A program made the position numbers and the translations under genes. From positions 460-64,459 of the forward strand of contig UEHQ01000011.1 of assembly GCA_900489925.1 (NCBI GenBank): a stretch of 64,000 bases of DNA, written 5' to 3'. The notes under the pieces were generated by a model. It ran no database searches and was not told where the DNA came from. It was given only the letters and a program-made list of their open reading frames with translations. This document shows positions 4,963-61,989 of the stretch, in pieces. How positions within the stretch are numbered: position 1 is the stretch's first letter; each line of letters opens with the position of its first letter. The DNA comes from Hyphomicrobiales bacterium. GTDB lineage: Bacteria; Pseudomonadota; Alphaproteobacteria; Rhizobiales; Rhizobiaceae.

Positions 4963-6807
4963 TTACACTCTTCTCAAGCCTAGGTGGCCTGCCGCTCGCT
5001 CGCAGATCGCCGACCAAGTGCGATTTTCACGCACGAACTGTTGGGCATTGACCTTCAGGGTGCTGCGAAGCTCCGGTTTATCCAACGCCAGGCGAATTTT
5101 AGCTTCGAGATCGGCGACATTGCCTTTCTCAAACAGTAATCCGGTTTCGCCTGCCTGGGCGAAATCCTTCAATGCCTCAACGTTAGACACGATGAGCACC
5201 TTGCCCATCGCCAAAGCCTCAATTGGCTTTATGGGAGAAACCATCTCGCTCACCTTGAAAGGTAGGCGCGGAATAGGAGCGATCTCGATCAGTGAGTAGT
5301 AAGAACTCACAGTCTCGAAAGGAACGCGGCCCGGCATGATCAGCTTGTCGCTTAGACCCGCCGCGCGAAAGCACCCTTGGATCTCGTCAGTTATGGGAGC
5401 CGTGCCGTCCTTGAGACGCTTCTCACTTCCAACGATCAGAAGCCTGAAGTCATATCCCTTTTTCGCCAGCGCAACAGACGCCCGCGCAAGATCAGGAAGG
5501 CCTTCATATTCGATGATCGAACCGACATAGCCAATAACAGGAATGCCCGCCGGTATCTTCAGCTTTTCAGCAAGCGTCCGATCTTCTTCAGGGCTGAAAA
5601 CCGATGCATCATCCACCCCATTCGGCATCAAGTGGATCCGTCGCGGATCAACGCCACGCGAAATAAGGTCCGTCTTCATAGGCTCGGTTAGCGTTAGTAC
5701 GACATCCGCCTGCTGCGCCACAAAACTCTCCAGTGCGACGGTAACAGCATAATCCGGTGTCTTGTTGTAGCCGGCGTCCTTGGACTCTCTCGTAAGTTCC
5801 CACATTCCACGAACTTCATAAGCGAACGGCAATCCAAGGCGCTTAGCAGCAATAAGCGCCGGCAGGCTATTCATGAAGTTAGAAGCGGCGACGACGATTT
5901 CCGGCTGTAGCGCACGTATTTTCTGCTCCAAAGCATCCGCAGCCGATTTGACCCACGCAAGCGTATCGTGTCGCGATTCATTAGGCTTCAATATGCGATG
6001 GTAAGGTACGCCATCGATCTCGTCGATGGCGGGTATACTTTCGACCGCAAGGTCCTTGTGGAAATTCAAGGGGAAGGACGGCCGCGTAATCACCTGCACG
6101 TCCAGCCCAATACCTTGGTAACCCTTGGCTACGCCATGGGTACGCGTCGTGTAACCGGTAACGTTATATGGGAGGCTGGAGGCCGCAATGTAGGCAACCC
6201 TATTTTTTGTTGTCTGCCCTGCTGAAACAGTCGCCTCTGCGACCAATTTTCGAGCAGAAAGCAACATTACTGGCTGCCGTGTTAGAAATGAACGTTGCGC
6301 CGTTGTCAGGTGGTTGCTCGCTAACAACTCCTCCGCAGTCGAGAGCGCACTCTCCAAGTCTAGCGCGGACTGCATCAGCGAAAAGTAGACCAACTTGTCG
6401 AAGAATTCGCTTTTATTCCGCTGCGCTATACCGACAAATTGCTTGGCAACATTTTTGTCCAGTCTGGAAAGCGCTGCCAACAAAGCGCCTGCAACCTCTC
6501 CCCGGACTGCCGCAGGGAGTGGTGCGCGCGATATCTGCTGCCATATTGATGAGGCAACGCTATCCGGGATGTGGCTATTCTCATCCGCCAAGCGCTGTAT
6601 TTGCCGGGCGATCTTCTTTATCCTCCCCGCCATAATGAGCTTGTGAGGCGTCAACAGATGCTTCAGGGGATGCCTCGCCGCCCGCTTCTTGTGTGCTCGC
6701 ACCAAATCGACGGAGTATTGGACAAGTTCATCTCTCAGTTCGAATCCGAAAGAGGCCGTGTTTCGTCCATCTACGTTGTCGAGCCTCGTCGCATGCATCA
6801 AAGCCAT
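4963..6807 (-). CDS. Family 4 glycosyltransferase
   Basis: The 614-residue protein has a C-terminal GT-B fold of the GT4 type: FAYEVRGMWELTRES in the acceptor domain, LMPNGVD, PVIGYVGSIIEYEGLPDLA at the start of the donor domain, and SPIKPIEALAMGKVLIVS with the donor-binding E-x7-E region, followed by GETGLLFE. The first 200 residues are not part of the GT fold and look helical; I cannot assign them. GGGGGAC precedes ATG 6807. It is the third gene of an operon with the ManNAc(A) genes wecB and wecC, 25 bases after wecC, so it probably builds a ManNAcA-containing surface glycan. Donor and acceptor are unknown. Confidence 0.85.
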   Translation of the reverse strand: MALMHATRLDNVDGRNTASFGFELRDELVQYSVDLVRAHKKRAARHPLKHLLTPHKLIMAGRIKKIARQIQRLADENSHIPDSVASSIWQQISRAPLPAAVRGEVAGALLAALSRLDKNVAKQFVGIAQRNKSEFFDKLVYFSLMQSALDLESALSTAEELLASNHLTTAQRSFLTRQPVMLLSARKLVAEATVSAGQTTKNRVAYIAASSLPYNVTGYTTRTHGVAKGYQGIGLDVQVITRPSFPLNFHKDLAVESIPAIDEIDGVPYHRILKPNESRHDTLAWVKSAADALEQKIRALQPEIVVAASNFMNSLPALIAAKRLGLPFAYEVRGMWELTRESKDAGYNKTPDYAVTVALESFVAQQADVVLTLTEPMKTDLISRGVDPRRIHLMPNGVDDASVFSPEEDRTLAEKLKIPAGIPVIGYVGSIIEYEGLPDLARASVALAKKGYDFRLLIVGSEKRLKDGTAPITDEIQGCFRAAGLSDKLIMPGRVPFETVSSYYSLIEIAPIPRLPFKVSEMVSPIKPIEALAMGKVLIVSNVEALKDFAQAGETGLLFEKGNVADLEAKIRLALDKPELRSTLKVNAQQFVRENRTWSAICERAAGHLGLRRV

Positions 6808-6832: not shown

Positions 6833-8089
6833 TTAGACTGCTACAGCCTTCACCGTTGAGTGCGGAAAGCACTTCCCTGCAAATTCCTTATGCGCAACCA
6901 AGACGACGTGAACGTCGGCATATCCCAGTGCATCATCCACATCCATCAGCCGAAGATGCTCAAATCCTCTTGGAAGGTCGTCGATGTTCGGTTCTACAAC
7001 GACAACCTCACCCGGATGCTCCTTACATAGGTTCTGGATGATTTCCAAAGCAGGGCTCTCTCTCAGGTCATCAATATTTGGCTTGAATGCCATGCCGTAG
7101 CACGCAACCTTCAGGTCAACCGCCCGGCGCTCGGGTGAGCTCATCAGGGTTTCGCCGACGACCTTCTTTATCTTTTCCAACACCCATCCCGGCTTACTAT
7201 CGTTGACCTCCCGAGCCGTCCTTATCAGACGCGATTCCTCCGGAGCACTGGAAACGATGAACCAAGGATCAACTGCGATACAGTGCCCCCCAACCCCCGG
7301 GCCAGGCTGCAGGATATTTACCCGAGGATGATGGTTGGCTAGGCTAATCAACTCCCAGACGTCAACTTTCAAGCGTTCGCATACCAATGAGAGTTCATTG
7401 GCAAACGCAATATTCACGTCCCTAAAGCTGTTCTCCGTCAGTTTTGCGAGTTCCGCCGTGCGAGGATTAGTCAATACGCAATCGCCCTCAACGAAGGCAC
7501 GATATAGCTGCACTGCCAAGTCGGAGCACCGGCGGGTCATGCCGGCGATAATACGATCATTGGACACCAGCTCTTGAATAACCTTCCCTGGCAAAACCCG
7601 CTCGGGACAGTGCGCAATTCGGATGTCCGAGTCCTCGCCTGCTTGCTGCGGGAAAGAAAGATCTGGTCGTGCTTCGGCCAACCACGCGGACATCTGTTCA
7701 GTTGCTCCGACCGGAGACGTCGACTCCAACACCACGAGATTTCCCGGCTGAAGTACAGGAGCAATCGATTTCGCCGCCGCTTCGATGTACCTGAGATCGG
7801 GATCATGGCTCTCACCGGTAAAGGGCGTTGGAACAGCGATCAGGAAGGCTTCTGCGGGTTCTGGAACAGTTGATGCACGCAAATAACCCTCGTGGACAAC
7901 GCTATGAACAACGATATCGAGGTCGGGTTCTACGATATGGATTTCGCCCTTGTTGATGGTGTCCACGACGCTTTGGCTGACGTCAATTCCGACAACCTGG
8001 ATTTTCCGCGACGCAAATAGGGCTGCAGTCGGAAGACCAATGTAGCCCAATCCTATGACAGAGATTTTTGTGAAGTTCTTCGCAGTCAT
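6833..8089 (-). CDS. wecC: UDP-N-acetyl-D-mannosamine dehydrogenase
   Basis: The 418-residue protein belongs to the UDP-glucose/GDP-mannose dehydrogenase family. It has the NAD-binding GLGYIGLPTAALFA motif near residue 12, the central helix segment AELAKLTENSFRDVNIAFANEL, the catalytic Cys in GPGVGGHCIAVDPW, and a C-terminal domain with YGMAFKPNIDDLRESPA. It oxidises UDP-ManNAc to UDP-ManNAcA with two NAD+. The assignment over other UDP-sugar dehydrogenases rests on sequence type and on the partner epimerase: its ATG overlaps the wecB stop as TAATG, so the two are translationally coupled. Confidence 0.88.
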   Translation of the reverse strand: MTAKNFTKISVIGLGYIGLPTAALFASRKIQVVGIDVSQSVVDTINKGEIHIVEPDLDIVVHSVVHEGYLRASTVPEPAEAFLIAVPTPFTGESHDPDLRYIEAAAKSIAPVLQPGNLVVLESTSPVGATEQMSAWLAEARPDLSFPQQAGEDSDIRIAHCPERVLPGKVIQELVSNDRIIAGMTRRCSDLAVQLYRAFVEGDCVLTNPRTAELAKLTENSFRDVNIAFANELSLVCERLKVDVWELISLANHHPRVNILQPGPGVGGHCIAVDPWFIVSSAPEESRLIRTAREVNDSKPGWVLEKIKKVVGETLMSSPERRAVDLKVACYGMAFKPNIDDLRESPALEIIQNLCKEHPGEVVVVEPNIDDLPRGFEHLRLMDVDDALGYADVHVVLVAHKEFAGKCFPHSTVKAVAV

Positions 8090-9207
8090 TATTTATGCAA
8101 CCAATCTATAATCCGCTTGCTTGCGTATCCGTCGCCATAAGGGTTGTTAGCCGAGCTCATTGCTCGGTAGGCGTCCGAATTGGATAGCAGTAGAGATACC
8201 TCGTTTGTGATTTTGTCGACATCAGTGCCGACCAGCCGAACGGTGCCCGAAGCCACCGCCTCAGGCCTTTCTGTCGTATCGCGAAACACAAGGACCGGCT
8301 TCCCAAGAGACGGCGCCTCCTCCTGGATCCCTCCAGAGTCAGTCAAGATTATCTCTGATTGGCTCATGAGATAAACGAAGGGAACGTAATCTTGAGGTTC
8401 GATAAGCAGAATGTTCTGAACATTCCCGAGTATGCGGCTTACCGGCTCACGGACATTCGGATTCAAGTGAACTGGATAGACAATCGTGCAGTCCGGAAAC
8501 CGTTCTGCGATATTGCGCAAGCCTTGACATATGCGCTCAAAACCGGCGCCGAAATTCTCGCGCCTGTGTCCCGTCACGAGGATGATCCGATTGCAGTCCG
8601 ATAGGAACGGAAAACGCGACCTGATGCTTGCTTGGAGCAAGCGGTCAGCGTCCAGTCGCTGCTTTACGCTGACAAGGGCATCGATAACCGTATTGCCGGT
8701 GACGACGATTGACGAGGGATCAACATTCTCGGCCAGAAGATTTTGCCGCGCAGCCTCGGTCGGCGCAAAATGATGCGTCGCGATCGCGCTCGTGAGCTTT
8801 CGATTCCCCTCTTCAGGCCACGGAGAATAAAGATTGCCTGTCCTCAGACCTGCCTCGACATGCCCAACCGGTATCCGGCTGTAATAGCCAGCCAGGGACG
8901 CCGCAAAAGTAGTTGCGGTATCTCCGTGCACCAATAGCACGTCAGGCTTTTCCGCCTCTAGGATCGCCTGCAATCCAAGCAGGATAGCCGACGTCACATG
9001 AAACAACGTCTGGCCTGCCCGCATGACATTCAGGTCGTGATGCGGCTTAATCGCAAAGACATCGAGCACCTGATCGAGCATTTCGCGATGCTGAGCGGTG
9101 ACACACACGCAGGAGGTGAAATCGGCTCGTGTTTGCAGTTCCGAAACAATCGGAGCCATTTTAATCGCTTCGGGTCGGGTCCCAAAGACCGTCATAACTT
9201 TCTTCAT
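8089..9207 (-). CDS. wecB: UDP-N-acetylglucosamine 2-epimerase (non-hydrolysing)
   Basis: The 372-residue protein matches WecB/MnaA in length and motifs: [13 protein letters not shown] at the start, [22 protein letters not shown] with the conserved acidic and arginine residues, TGHRRENFG and [30 protein letters not shown]. It interconverts UDP-GlcNAc and UDP-ManNAc in the cytoplasm and supplies the WecC substrate. GGGGG lies 6 bases before ATG 9207. It is the first gene of the wecB-wecC-glycosyltransferase operon; the phased repeats at 9287-9328 are in its upstream region. Confidence 0.93.
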
Positions 9208-9286
9208 AAGGTACCCCCTATGAGGGGCAATAGATTAGCTTGCATCCGTAAGCAATATCCGATGATCGATATAACCCCTCTAAGTT

Positions 9287-9328
9287 GTTTACAAAGTGTT
9301 ACAGGCTGTTCACAAACGGTTACAGCGA
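9287..9328. promoter_or_regulatory. Tandem 21-bp imperfect repeat, four phased TT(N)ACA boxes
   Basis: Two adjacent 21-base units (9287-9307 and 9308-9328) match at 15 of their first 18 positions. Each unit holds two boxes of the form TTTACA, GTTACA or TTCACA, so ACA recurs at 9293, 9303, 9314 and 9324: spacings of 10, 11 and 10 bases, one per DNA turn. That arrangement is typical of direct-repeat sites for OmpR/PhoB-type response regulators. It lies in the AT-rich 358-base divergent region between wecB (start 9207) and the acyltransferase (start 9566) and could control either. I see no other feature in that region; short frames there look non-coding. Confidence 0.5.
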
Positions 9329-9565
9329 GAAAGATAAAGCGTTTAACCAATCCAGAAGGGCGCCACATAAAGGCCAACAATTCAAATATTACATGCCATA
9401 GATTGCAATATAGATACACAAGCAACCACGAGGGGATGAAGCGTCACTACAACCAACGTCATATGGGAACGTCCCGATCACCTTTGCTGCTCACTGTGAC
9501 ATCGCGTCCCTAGAGTTTACTTAAAACGGCGTGTACGGAACTGCCCACGAGATTTGGAGACCTCA

Positions 9566-11509
9566 ATGGCTGGGAAAAAAAGGGCAGATATACAGCTTTT
9601 ACGAGCAGTCGCTGTTCTTGCGGTGATCGGCTATCACGCGCGCGTTCCTGGCATGGGAGGTGGTTTCACCGGCGTTGATATCTTCTTTGTCATCTCGGGT
9701 TTTTTGATAACGGGCAAGCTCTCAACTGAACTTTTCGAGACCGGCAGAATTCGTTGGTTCAGCTTTGCGAGCGCGCGGGCTGCGCGTCTTCTTCCGAATG
9801 CGCTGCTGACGCTCTCGGTAACCCTTCTGCTGAGCTATATTTGTCTCGCTAGGTACAGAGGCGCCGGCTTGGCAAAAGACGTTCAGACGGCCGCTCTGTT
9901 TTTTGGAAACATTCGTTTTTCAAAGCAGTCGAGCGACTATTTCAGTTCGACCGATCTGCCGAGTGCTGTCTTGCATTTTTGGTCATTGAACGTCGAAGAA
10001 CAATTCTACCTCGTGCTACCCATAGCGCTACTGGTCGTCAGCTTCGTAAAGGGAACTTGGCGCAAGCGCGTGATTGGTTATGGCCTTGCCCTTACAGCGG
10101 CTGTCTCGTTTTCCCTCACCGTCTGGACGGTGCATTTCAACCAGAATCTCGCTTTCTTTTTGCTGCACACACGCGCTTGGGAGTTTGCGATTGGCGGCCT
10201 TCTAGCGCTGTACATCAGGCCAATATCGATGTTAGGAAACCCCCAGCTCCGCGGTATTATCGCTTGGGCAACTTTTGCCGGCATGCTCGCTGGCATTGTG
10301 CTGATCTCCGAAGATGAGCTCTATCCGAACTGGATAACCCTAGCGCCCACACTATGCGCCGCATTTTTCATCGCCTTTGCCCCGGACTCGCGCCTCCTCG
10401 CTCAAACCTTTCCAAAAAGGAGTGGCCTCGGCCTAGTGGGAGACTGGTCCTACAGTTTGTACCTGTGGCATTGGCCCGCGCTGGTATTTGCTGCGTCGTC
10501 AATCAACGGAAAAGTCGCCTCCCCAGCTGTCGGCGTTACTATCGGAAGTGCCATTGCGATCGCGGTTTTCTATCTCGTCGAGGAGCCGCTACGAAAGCAG
10601 GCACGCATCGGAACTAGAAGGACCATCGTTGCATCTGCGTGCGGACTAAGTGTAGTGGCGGTCGCCTTCGGCTCTGCCGGCTACAACAGAACCATTAACC
10701 GGCACTTCCCCCCAAGCGCGTTGGATAATGAGATCATTGCTGCGCGCAAGGACCTACCGAGAAGTTACCGCGACGGCTGCCACGTCAATAAAATCTGGGA
10801 TAAAAAGCCGACACACTGCATATATGGGAATGGCGAGAAGACTGTTCTTCTTTTCGGCGATAGCCATGCTGCTCAATGGCTTGAAGCGATCATTCTAGCC
10901 GCTGATGGCTCCGGTTGGCGCGTCGCCAATGAGACCAAATCAGGTTGCCCCTCAATCAGCGGAACAGTGTTGTATGCGCCTACCAAATCCCCGTTCATCG
11001 ATTGCGATCACTGGAGAAATGCGGTTTTCGAAAGCCTAAGGAAAACGCCGCCCCAGGCCGTAATTATTGCTAATTCATCGACCTATGCGCTGGACCGCTA
11101 TGGCATAGAGGCAGGAAGCTCGAAGGACTTGCCAACCGCCCTCAAGAAAACCGTGAGCATTTTCCGCGGTATGGGCATCCCAGTATATTTGATTCGAGAT
11201 ACACCGCGAATGAGTCTCGGTGTGTCCGACTGCCTGTCCAAGGGCTATGGCGACGGATGCGCATTACCGCGCGAAACGGCTATGGCATCATCGTATGCAT
11301 CGATCCCTGACGTCGATCCGGATGTGACTCTGCTGGACTTCACGAATGATATATGCGCTGGCCCGATCTGCTCGCCGGTCCAAAACGGACGCATAGCCTA
11401 CCGCGACCAGCACCATATCACCTCCACCTTCGCCGCGACCTTCTCAAATCGATTCCAACCTATCTTTGCGCTTTCTGGACCACAGGATACACTTTCATAC
11501 AACAGATAG
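9566..11509 (+). CDS. OafA-type acyltransferase with C-terminal SGNH domain
   Basis: From ATG 9566 (GGAGA 5 bases before it) the protein has 647 residues. About ten membrane helices form an acyltransferase-3 domain: the N-terminal IGYHARVP with the catalytic His, FTGVDIFFVISGFLITG, FWSLNVEEQFYLVLP, and WSYSLYLWHWP. The periplasmic C-terminal part is an SGNH/GDSL-like domain, with LLFGDSHAAQWLEA carrying the Ser and a late RDQHHITSTF carrying the Asp-x-x-His pair. Such proteins O-acetylate surface glycans, LPS or peptidoglycan. The TTG four codons upstream is a less likely start. The gene points away from the wec operon and belongs to the same glycan block by position only. Confidence 0.88.
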   Translation: MAGKKRADIQLLRAVAVLAVIGYHARVPGMGGGFTGVDIFFVISGFLITGKLSTELFETGRIRWFSFASARAARLLPNALLTLSVTLLLSYICLARYRGAGLAKDVQTAALFFGNIRFSKQSSDYFSSTDLPSAVLHFWSLNVEEQFYLVLPIALLVVSFVKGTWRKRVIGYGLALTAAVSFSLTVWTVHFNQNLAFFLLHTRAWEFAIGGLLALYIRPISMLGNPQLRGIIAWATFAGMLAGIVLISEDELYPNWITLAPTLCAAFFIAFAPDSRLLAQTFPKRSGLGLVGDWSYSLYLWHWPALVFAASSINGKVASPAVGVTIGSAIAIAVFYLVEEPLRKQARIGTRRTIVASACGLSVVAVAFGSAGYNRTINRHFPPSALDNEIIAARKDLPRSYRDGCHVNKIWDKKPTHCIYGNGEKTVLLFGDSHAAQWLEAIILAADGSGWRVANETKSGCPSISGTVLYAPTKSPFIDCDHWRNAVFESLRKTPPQAVIIANSSTYALDRYGIEAGSSKDLPTALKKTVSIFRGMGIPVYLIRDTPRMSLGVSDCLSKGYGDGCALPRETAMASSYASIPDVDPDVTLLDFTNDICAGPICSPVQNGRIAYRDQHHITSTFAATFSNRFQPIFALSGPQDTLSYNR

Positions 11510-11635: not shown

Positions 11636-12435
11636 GTGACATACGACCTAGACCTGTTTCTGTCTCTGAACGAGGAATACAAGACAAAGCCGTTGGTGCC
11701 GGCTCCGCCCACCTATGATCCGGCGACTCTCGTGGAGCGAGCCGCCCGCCGCGTTGAAAACATCAATCGCAAAGTCCCAGTTGCTGGCAAGCGGGTTCTT
11801 GAAATCGGGTGCGGCAGAGGCGAAGTCTGTTTCGCCTTGAATAAGACCTATGGCGGCGATGTCGTTGGTGTGGATGTTCGGAGCTACCCAGAATGGGAGG
11901 AAGCGCCCCGTGGCGTTTGCTTCAGACCGATCAAACGGCAGAAGACCCGCAAGACATTGGGAAATTCGACCTTATATATTCAAACTCCGTTTGGGAGCAT
12001 GTTCGCCACCCTTTTAAAATGCTGAAGAGAGCGTTTGACGTTCTGAAGCCAGGCGGCCACCTTTTGCTCAGCGCGAACCTACATCGCGGACCAAAGGCAT
12101 CTCACCGCTATCGCGATGTATTTTTCCCGTGGCCGCATCTGTTGTTTGACGATCAAATCTTTGAACAGTTTTACAAGACACTGAACCTCAACAGAACGTC
12201 GGCTTGGGTCAGCCAGTTGTCGATTACTGACTATTTCAACTATTTCAACATGGTTGGCTTTGACGTGCTTCATACGTCATATTCGATAACGCCAATCGAT
12301 GAAGCCTTTGTTCAGCGTTTCTCGGACAAGCTTGATCGCTTCCCCCGCTATGATCTTGAGCGCGACTTTATCCATGTCAAATTGAGGAAGCCCTCCAATT
12401 GGAGCAGCGGTCTGCATAAATTCAAGCGACCATAG
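11636..12435 (+). pseudogene. SAM-dependent methyltransferase, frameshifted
   Basis: A GTG at 11636 with AGGAAGG 5 bases upstream opens a frame containing motif I, VLEIGCGRGEVCFALNK, and the acidic end of strand 2, VVGVDVRS. After about 11920 that frame turns to nonsense and stops at 12025. The next frame takes over with DIGKFDLIYSNSVWEHVRHP, LKPGGHLLLSANL and FFPWPHLLFDD, continuing to 12435. The two halves join into one class I methyltransferase of about 266 residues if a single base is missing near 11915-11945. It could be a true decayed gene or a base-call error. The glycan context suggests a sugar methyltransferase. It is the last gene before the tRNA. Confidence 0.8.
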
Positions 12436-35177: not shown

Positions 35178-36308
35178 TTAAAGGGCTAGATCGCTGGGGT
35201 CGAAATTGACGATGACCTCGCCCCAGGCGTCGTATTTGTCTTTCGGAAGGTTCGTGAACGGCGACGACTTCATGACGGCGCGCTTTGCACCGCTCGCCAA
35301 CGCCATCCGCGTTGCCTCGTTGGTGCCGCCGATGGCCTCGACATCGGGCGTACCGATGATGTTGCCATCCGGGTCAAGCTTCATGTGGACCTTGATGCGA
35401 ACGTCGCTCGCACCTTCCATTCCAGGGATGACCGACCAGTTGCCGGCGATCGCGCTGCGCAGCGCGTCCATCTCGCTCATGGAGAGCTTGGAGCCACCGG
35501 TGGCCTTCTTGGCGCCGAGCGAAGCAACCTCAGTCGAGCTCTTGGCGCCGCCATTCGACGGGTCCTGCTTGTTGAGCAGGGCCGCGATGTCATCGGCGTT
35601 GAAGTCGCTCTGCTTCGAGGACGAGGCTTTGGCCTTTTCCTGCTTCTTGTCAGCCAGCTTCTTGTCCGTCGGCTTCTCGTCGCTCTTGGCCTTGTCGTCC
35701 GTCTTTTTCTCAGGCGGCTTTTCGGCCGGCTTCTGTTCCGGCGGCTTCACCTGCGGCTTGACGACAGGCGTCGGCACCTTGTCCGGCAATGCTTCCGCAT
35801 CCGGCTTCGGCGGCTCTGGCGTTTCCTGCGGCTTTTCCGGAGGCTTCTCAGGCGTCGGCGGCGTGATCTCGGGCTTCGGCGGTGTGATCGACGCAACCTG
35901 CTGCGGCTCGACGTCCGTCTCTTCCTTCATGATGTCCTTGACCTCGTTCGGCACAGGATCATTCTGGGGAAGAGGCTTTTCGACCGCCTTCGGGGCAGCA
36001 GCGCTCTCGTTGTTGTTGGGCTTGGCGTTCGGGATCGGCGGCGTCTTCAGGTCGACCTTGTTCTCGCCCATGTTCTCGGCGTTTTCGACATTGGTCGGCT
36101 TGGTCGTCGGCTTCGGCGCCGGCTTTTCGCTCGGCTTGGCGGTCTTGTCGCCCTGCTGCATCTGCGTCATTTCTTCGACGGGCACGAGGTCGACGGGCAT
36201 CGCCTCGAAATCCTCGACCTTGAATTGCTCCGGGGAGCCGATCGAAATCAGCGCCCAGGCGAGCAATGCACAGTGCAGAGCAGCAGATGTGACGATACTG
36301 GCCTTCAT
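35178..36308 (-). CDS. tolA: Tol-Pal inner-membrane protein TolA
   Basis: The 376-residue protein has one N-terminal membrane anchor ([19 protein letters not shown]), a long central domain very rich in Pro, Lys and Glu (about 50-270), and a small C-terminal domain with [17 protein letters not shown] and [17 protein letters not shown]. It spans the periplasm and links the TolQR motor to TolB and Pal. Its length, base bias and repeats create long open frames on the opposite strand, which are not genes. It begins 8 bases after the tolR stop. Confidence 0.94.
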
Positions 36309-61744: not shown

Positions 61745-61989
61745 GGAACGACGAACCCCTTCCGGAACGGCACATGACGACCGGACGCGCGAACGTCCGA
61801 TCGGCAGACCTGAAAACAGAAAACGGGGAGCCTTTGCTTCCGGAGAAGCCGGCTCCTCTCACATTTTATGGACCAAAAGTTGCGCACGGAGTTTAAATTG
61901 ACGTAAACGGCAACACTCGAAATCAGGCAATGTTTTTGTTTTGTTCACATATCGATGGCAGTTATTTTACAACTGCAATAGGGTGAAGC

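Follow-up and report, generated by a model that had tools for sequence, protein, structure and literature searches.

A phased tandem array of GTTACA-like boxes between wecB and an acyltransferase gene as a candidate operator for an OmpR-subfamily regulator

Four similar hexamers ending in ACA lie between wecB, on the minus strand, and the gene of an AT3-SGNH acyltransferase, on the plus strand, in a 64-kb stretch of DNA (the window, G000:C42:460-64459) within a 6.09-Mb genome of 75 contigs. The question raised by this locus is whether these hexamers form an operator and, if so, which kind of regulator would recognize it and which of the flanking genes it would control. The features concerned are as follows.

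9286..9327, plus strand: tandem array of two 21-bp units with four boxes, from direct reading and a script
9288..9293, plus strand: box 1, TTTACA, first half-site of unit 1
9298..9303, plus strand: box 2, GTTACA, second half-site of unit 1, identical to the core of KWWGTTACAT, the OmpR motif of E. coli
9309..9314, plus strand: box 3, TTCACA, first half-site of unit 2
9319..9324, plus strand: box 4, GTTACA, second half-site of unit 2, again identical to the E. coli OmpR core
8089..9207, minus strand: wecB, non-hydrolysing UDP-GlcNAc 2-epimerase (TIGR00236, 519.7 bits; cut-off 210.15)
6833..8089, minus strand: wecC, UDP-ManNAc dehydrogenase (NF008286, 697.4 bits; cut-off 459)
4963..6807, minus strand: GT4-like glycosyltransferase, possibly in the wecBC operon (PF13579, PF00534)
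9566..11509, plus strand: AT3-SGNH acyltransferase (PF01757, PF19040)
9268..9273, minus strand: TATATC, possible -10 element of wecB as judged from the letters, 14 nt from box 1

The ACA ends at 9293, 9303, 9314 and 9324 given in the original prediction were confirmed by direct reading and by a script; the steps between the boxes are 10, 11 and 10 bp, and the common pattern is KTYACA. The match of 15 out of 18 positions claimed for the two 21-bp units was also reproduced, counted from either 9286 or 9287, and up to 17 of the 21 positions are identical when the frame is moved one base to the left of 9286/9287. Tandem Repeats Finder independently reports the array (9286-9325, period 21, 1.9 copies, score 59); a default repeat finder with a seed of 9 and a minimum of 12 did not report it. 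Two other tandem repeats are present in the window, a second 21-bp repeat at 35846-35889 (2.1 copies) and one of period 12 at 1-52 (4.3 copies).

We favour the reading, with a probability of roughly one half, that a response regulator of the OmpR subfamily uses the array as its operator. This reading is built on the boxes themselves, their phasing, their likeness to the core of the E. coli OmpR motif and to E. coli OmpR-dependent promoters, and the fact that the genome encodes several OmpR-like regulators. According to excerpts of PMC5438342, 25 ChIP-exo peaks yielded the E. coli motif KWWGTTACAT, and the 17-base motif GTTACATTTTGTTACAT came from two other methods; the box of the related E. 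coli regulator RstA is TACATNTNGTTACA (excerpt of PMC4117788). The array units TTTACAnnnnGTTACA and TTCACAnnnnGTTACA each resemble an E. coli-type OmpR box, in which an imperfect first half-site (TTTACA or TTCACA) is followed at 10 bp by a perfect second one (GTTACA). The GTTACA core is exact in boxes 2 and 4 and is matched at five of its six positions in box 1 and at four in box 3. The spacing of the half-sites is also that of the OmpR box, namely 10 bp inside 20-bp boxes, with the boxes in tandem. Outside the core, the units depart from the T-rich sequence that the full motif GTTACATTTTGTTACAT has in its flanks and spacer, with 5 mismatches in unit 1 and 7 in unit 2. Nor does this motif single out the array, since at least four further positions of the window also have 5 mismatches.

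As a positive control, the array pattern was applied to known OmpR-dependent promoters. Its best match in 260 bp of E. coli ompF was TTTACTTTTGGTTACA, with 1 mismatch, and in 330 bp of ompC it found TTTACATTTTGAAACA, with 2 mismatches and tied with an overlapping match. We take these to be site F1 of ompF and site C1 of ompC, respectively, with labels placed in part after PMC3050692. The original assignment to an OmpR/PhoB-type regulator can be narrowed in this way: the GTTACA core, the 20-bp boxes and the ompF/ompC control speak for the OmpR subfamily, whereas PhoB is disfavoured by the steps of 10, 11 and 10 bp. The PhoB box consists of CTGTCAT repeats with an 11-bp period.

In the favoured reading, two regulator dimers would bind side by side on one face of the helix, one for each 20-bp box, with TTTACA+GTTACA and TTCACA+GTTACA as the respective pairs of half-sites. 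Phosphorylation of the regulator by its kinase would lead to cooperative binding at the array, and the bound regulator would change transcription of the wecBC-glycosyltransferase genes, of the acyltransferase gene, or of both. We infer the binding and identity of the regulator, the promoter, and the direction of control, whether activation or repression, from the features described here.

The spacer between wecB and the acyltransferase gene is 358 bp long and has a GC content of about 45% (counted over 359 bp). The start codon of wecB is separated from box 1 by 80 bp, and box 4 from the acyltransferase ATG by 241 bp; this ATG at 9566, with GGAG upstream, was picked by eye, and the list of open reading frames gives TTG at 9554. 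A consensus promoter scan found none at the array or at TATATC (9268-9273), and one within 9150-9650, against 0.9 expected. If TATATC is the -10 element of wecB, box 1 would overlap the -35 region, as at promoters with a class II activator. In ompF, the GTTACA repeats read toward the gene; by this analogy, the reading direction in the array would favour the acyltransferase gene as the target. Beside the latter gene, a methyltransferase-like gene is found at 11636-12435 on the plus strand. Its coding sequence is broken into two frames that overlap, 11636-12025 and 11893-12435, and we suspect a frameshift in the gene or a sequencing error.

The array might instead have arisen by chance, or when 21 bp were duplicated locally in an AT-rich spacer, and no regulator would then be involved; we regard this as somewhat unlikely. 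Repeats matching at 15 or more of 18 positions are expected 0.05 times per 64 kb at an offset of 21, and 0.59 to 0.84 times over all offsets of 15-30 when overlapping positions are counted apart. Therefore, the 21-bp repeat is by itself nothing unusual. When up to 3 mismatches were allowed, the pattern KTYACA-N4-KTYACA-N5-KTYACA-N4-KTYACA was matched once in the window and never in 100 shuffles, a circular test in that the pattern was derived from the array itself. A less circular test used the E. coli OmpR core in doubled form, GTTACAN4GTTACA, that is, a motif found by others. It matches the array once with 1 mismatch and once with 2, the two matches lying 21 bp apart. Simulation of 198.5 million positions for each of two null compositions produced no such pair at a distance of 20-22 bp, a result that taken alone only limits the expectation to less than about 0.18 per genome (rule of three). 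Multiplication of the single-site rates, under the assumption that the two sites are independent, gives about 1e-4 tandem pairs per genome at the base composition of the window; if the AT content of the array spacer held throughout the genome, the figure would be about 0.01. A chance origin would also leave the half-period within each unit and the fit to the GTTACA core unexplained, and would not account for the recovery of the known ompF and ompC sites by the array pattern. It gains from the poor match to the full E. coli motif and from the distribution of the array: it was found neither at the wecB relatives examined nor elsewhere in the genus, its spacer was not found on plasmids, and no enrichment of a regulon is seen.

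As for this distribution, relatives of wecB at E<=1e-110 were found in 10 of the 148 genomes of the genus, the window's own genome included, and the nearest is 73% identical (G140). The array was absent at all 13 wecB loci scanned, ten from the genus and three from elsewhere in the order, including that of G140; it was also absent at three wecBC-glycosyltransferase clusters on Paracoccus plasmids. The conservation upstream of wecB by which the original prediction was to be judged was thus lacking at the 16 relatives examined. In none of the other 147 genomes of the genus was the acyltransferase matched at E<=1e-120, with at most 8 first-look candidates scored per genome; on plasmids it had no match at E<=1e-80. 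For the spacer, only a weak 34-bp match was seen, in one genome of the genus, and none on plasmids. The wecB-acyltransferase locus is accessory, and because no comparable spacer or acyltransferase was found in the 147 genomes searched, the absence of the array elsewhere is weak evidence either way.

Further copies in the same genome, the other expectation attached to the array, were borne out only in part: no second four-box array was found within 3 mismatches at the 10-11-10 spacing, and two half-arrays lie at an OmpR-like regulator gene, as described below. The four-box weight matrix was applied to the window and to selected loci, and the genome was covered by pattern searches. There was no enrichment of GTTACAN4GTTACA with up to 2 mismatches (64 matches, against 205 for the reversed control), and no excess of the two-box pattern (85 against 141) or the three-box pattern (10 against 18). 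The best matrix match in the window outside the array, at 61971 on the minus strand (three boxes, 20.4), is upstream of a ruvC-like open reading frame, as named by eye, and was rejected as a poor sequence match. In a wide contig collection, the exact four-box pattern occurs in 62 stretches from many phyla, two of them from one Alphaproteobacteria MAG; none of the 62 has a rhizobial title, and the window's own genome is perhaps outside this collection. We treated these stretches as chance matches. It should be mentioned that a palindromic near-match to the OmpR core, TGTTACACTCTGTAACATTG, with 1 mismatch per strand, is present at about 1199-1225 of L156 (G000:C38). It precedes an envelope gene that by eye looks RlpA-like, and is a possible further target.

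Which regulator might bind the array? The genome has 23 matches to PF00486 (Trans_reg_C), each scoring above the family cut-off. Among the 22 regulators extracted, five (L031, L029, L028, L037 and L022) are 43-47% identical to E. coli OmpR, and six of the ten regulators scanned had OmpR as their best NCBIfam model. None of these ten exceeded the OmpR equivalog cut-off of 331 (NCBIfam PRK09468); the scores were 273.4 bits for L031, then 257.3, 232.7, 229.0, 218.6 and 117.0. L031 (contig C35, about G000:C35:106841-107563) is the closest to E. coli OmpR, with 47% identity; it has N where E. coli OmpR has V203, a point against the favoured reading. Its gene precedes an apparent sensor-kinase gene that is cut by the contig end.

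Upstream of L031, two inverted GCGACAnnnnGTTACA arms lie on opposite strands, 29 bp apart from start to start. They are two of the 64 genome matches to GTTACAN4GTTACA, and that search preceded the recognition of the arms as a pair. If the 64 matches were evenly spread, the chance that one match falls within 300 bp upstream of L031 would be about 0.003, and for any of the 23 regulators about 0.07. A narrower pattern, TGTAACN4TGTNRM, was composed after both the array and the L031 sites were known. It has 6 matches in 6.09 Mb, against 5 for its reversed control. The array and L031 account for two each; of the remaining two, one is in a spacer adjoining a GntR-type gene (typed by eye) and the other inside a listed open reading frame. 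The box matrix found no array at the 23 regulator loci; the best two-box score, 13.1, was common to L031 and L020. Within about 350 bp upstream of L022, L028, L029, L037 and L033, neither GTTACAN4GTTACA nor its variant with N5 was matched at 2 mismatches or fewer. Such boxless promoters do not exclude these five as regulators of the array. Judged by its boxes and its likeness to OmpR, L031 is the leading candidate, and roughly half of the probability given to the OmpR subfamily falls to it.

Outside its own genome, L031 was not matched at E<=1e-90 in the genus (147 genomes, with 19 of about 70-120 first-look candidates scored per listed genome). Relatives at E<=1e-50 are present in 176 plasmid records. 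For an 18-kb stretch of C35, 121 plasmid records gave matches, all but one from Rhizobium, the best being 85.9% over 28% of the stretch. Loci from ten of the 176 records, 67 kb in total, were examined. Both inverted arms were found in six, always with the 29-bp step seen in G000, one exact arm in three, and none in one; the last is from Pannonibacter, whose regulator is the most similar to L031 (74%). The motif G[ACT][TG]ACA-N4-G[ACT][TG]ACA, composed after the upstream regions of the plasmid regulators had been seen, has 17 matches in the ten loci; the short spacer that precedes the regulator gene holds 15. In the window, this 16-bp motif has no full match; two of the four array boxes fit G[ACT][TG]ACA, and TTTACA and TTCACA do not. 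This speaks against L031, as does the inverted orientation of its arms beside the direct repeats of the array. The GNNACA boxes lie at L200:3753-3797 and at about 2885-2955 of L207-L215, between a divergent gene and the OmpR-like regulator gene. Neighbours of the plasmid regulators include EF-hand or calcium-binding, DUF302 and VTT/TVP38 proteins, each at five of the ten loci.

From these observations, a more specific history can be sketched, which we consider quite improbable as a whole. A mobile, plasmid-related OmpR-like two-component system would have taken over the ManNAcA-type glycan operon and the divergent acyltransferase gene in one Rhizobium-like species. Its relatives on alphaproteobacterial plasmids appear to be autoregulated via an inverted GNNACA array, and the direct two-dimer array of GTTACA half-sites would then join two accessory pieces into one circuit.

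The array might also be an operator for a regulator of another kind, namely ChvI, CenR, CtrA, PhoB, a CpxR-like protein or MucR/Ros. We consider this unlikely, although some of these regulators are at hand: PhoB (L021) and CtrA (L032) exceed their NCBIfam cut-offs in this genome, and the promoter of L027, presumably ChvI by its sequence, has two loose matches to GTTACAN4GTTACA with 3 mismatches each. In rhizobia, the zinc-finger regulator MucR/Ros controls glycan genes with AT-rich promoters. Exopolysaccharide and envelope genes are reported to be under the control of ChvI systems. The published binding motifs differ from the array, however: that of Caulobacter ChvI is TTGC-N3-GCAA, that of Rhodobacter CenR is TGA-N8-TGA, of which no pair was seen by eye in the array, and that of S. 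meliloti CenR consists of inverted AgTCAC repeats. A CRP-type palindrome (TGTTA...TCACA), inspected by eye, was rejected for its spacing. Neither PhoB nor CpxR fits in spacing or core.

The CpxR box is GTAAA-N5-GTAAA. This reading was prompted by GTAAA on the minus strand and by arrays with a CTTTAC core that were found in the genus. A tolerant four-box search of 60 genomes of the genus gave 11 places in ten other genomes, against 4 for the reversed control over all 60, one of them in G000. Eight of the 11 places (L008-L011, L014, L015, L018 and L019, at about 1501-1537) share the CTTTAC core and the 10-11-10 steps. A response-regulator or kinase gene lies within about 120 bp at five of the eight (L011, L014, L015, L018 and L019), of which L014 and L015 are near-identical loci of two genomes and not independent. 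At L008, a NodT-type gene is close by and the end of a kinase gene is about 1.2 kb off; at L009 and L010, no response-regulator, kinase or NodT-type gene was seen within 1.5 kb. These CTTTAC arrays are likely to be the autoregulatory array of a CpxR/OmpR-like system, to judge from their neighbours, and four-box arrays with 10-11-10 steps tend to mark OmpR-family systems in the genus. In the window array, the corresponding cores on the minus strand are GTAAC, GTGAA, GTAAC and GTAAA. The CpxR reading was dropped because only one of these four is GTAAA, and because the response regulator beside the CTTTAC array of L018 has at best a 40% match among the regulators of the window's genome.

If the OmpR-subfamily reading is true, the array and its regulator would be a regulator-operator pair for the control of a rhizobial surface glycan outside the ExoR-ExoS-ChvI circuit, and would offer a sequence-based guess at the DNA motif of a plasmid-borne OmpR-like regulator family. 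Among the open-access papers whose titles and opening abstract lines were listed, nothing of the kind was seen.

Compared with known systems, the array stands at different distances from its relatives. It shares the 10-11-10 geometry with the CTTTAC arrays of the genus, whereas the core of the latter is CTTTAC/TTAAC and not GTTACA. The boxes of the plasmid regulators (L207-L215) and of L031 (L200) resemble it in their 10-bp pairs of half-sites ending in ACA, GTTACA among them; their arms, however, are inverted, 29 bp apart from start to start and built of G[ACT][TG]ACA, whereas the array has its boxes in direct orientation and the G is missing from two of its half-sites. In the yersinial ompR and ompX promoters, two 20-bp elements each consist of two 10-bp halves (excerpt of PMC3050692). 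The resulting R1-R2 and X1-X2 arrangements, with four 10-bp sub-elements, are like that of the array, although the species, the target genes and details of the sequence differ. The E. coli sites F1-F2-F3 of ompF and C1-C2-C3 of ompC differ from the array in their T-rich flanks, in the distance between boxes (20 bp, against 21 bp in the array) and in their neighbours, which are porin genes, whereas the putative operator described here adjoins a glycan operon and an acyltransferase gene. They resemble it in having several boxes in tandem, with direct half-sites at 10 bp, and in the half-sites themselves, the first being TTTAC(A) and the second GTTACA, as in F1. It is plausible that the array represents a new site of this known kind of switch.
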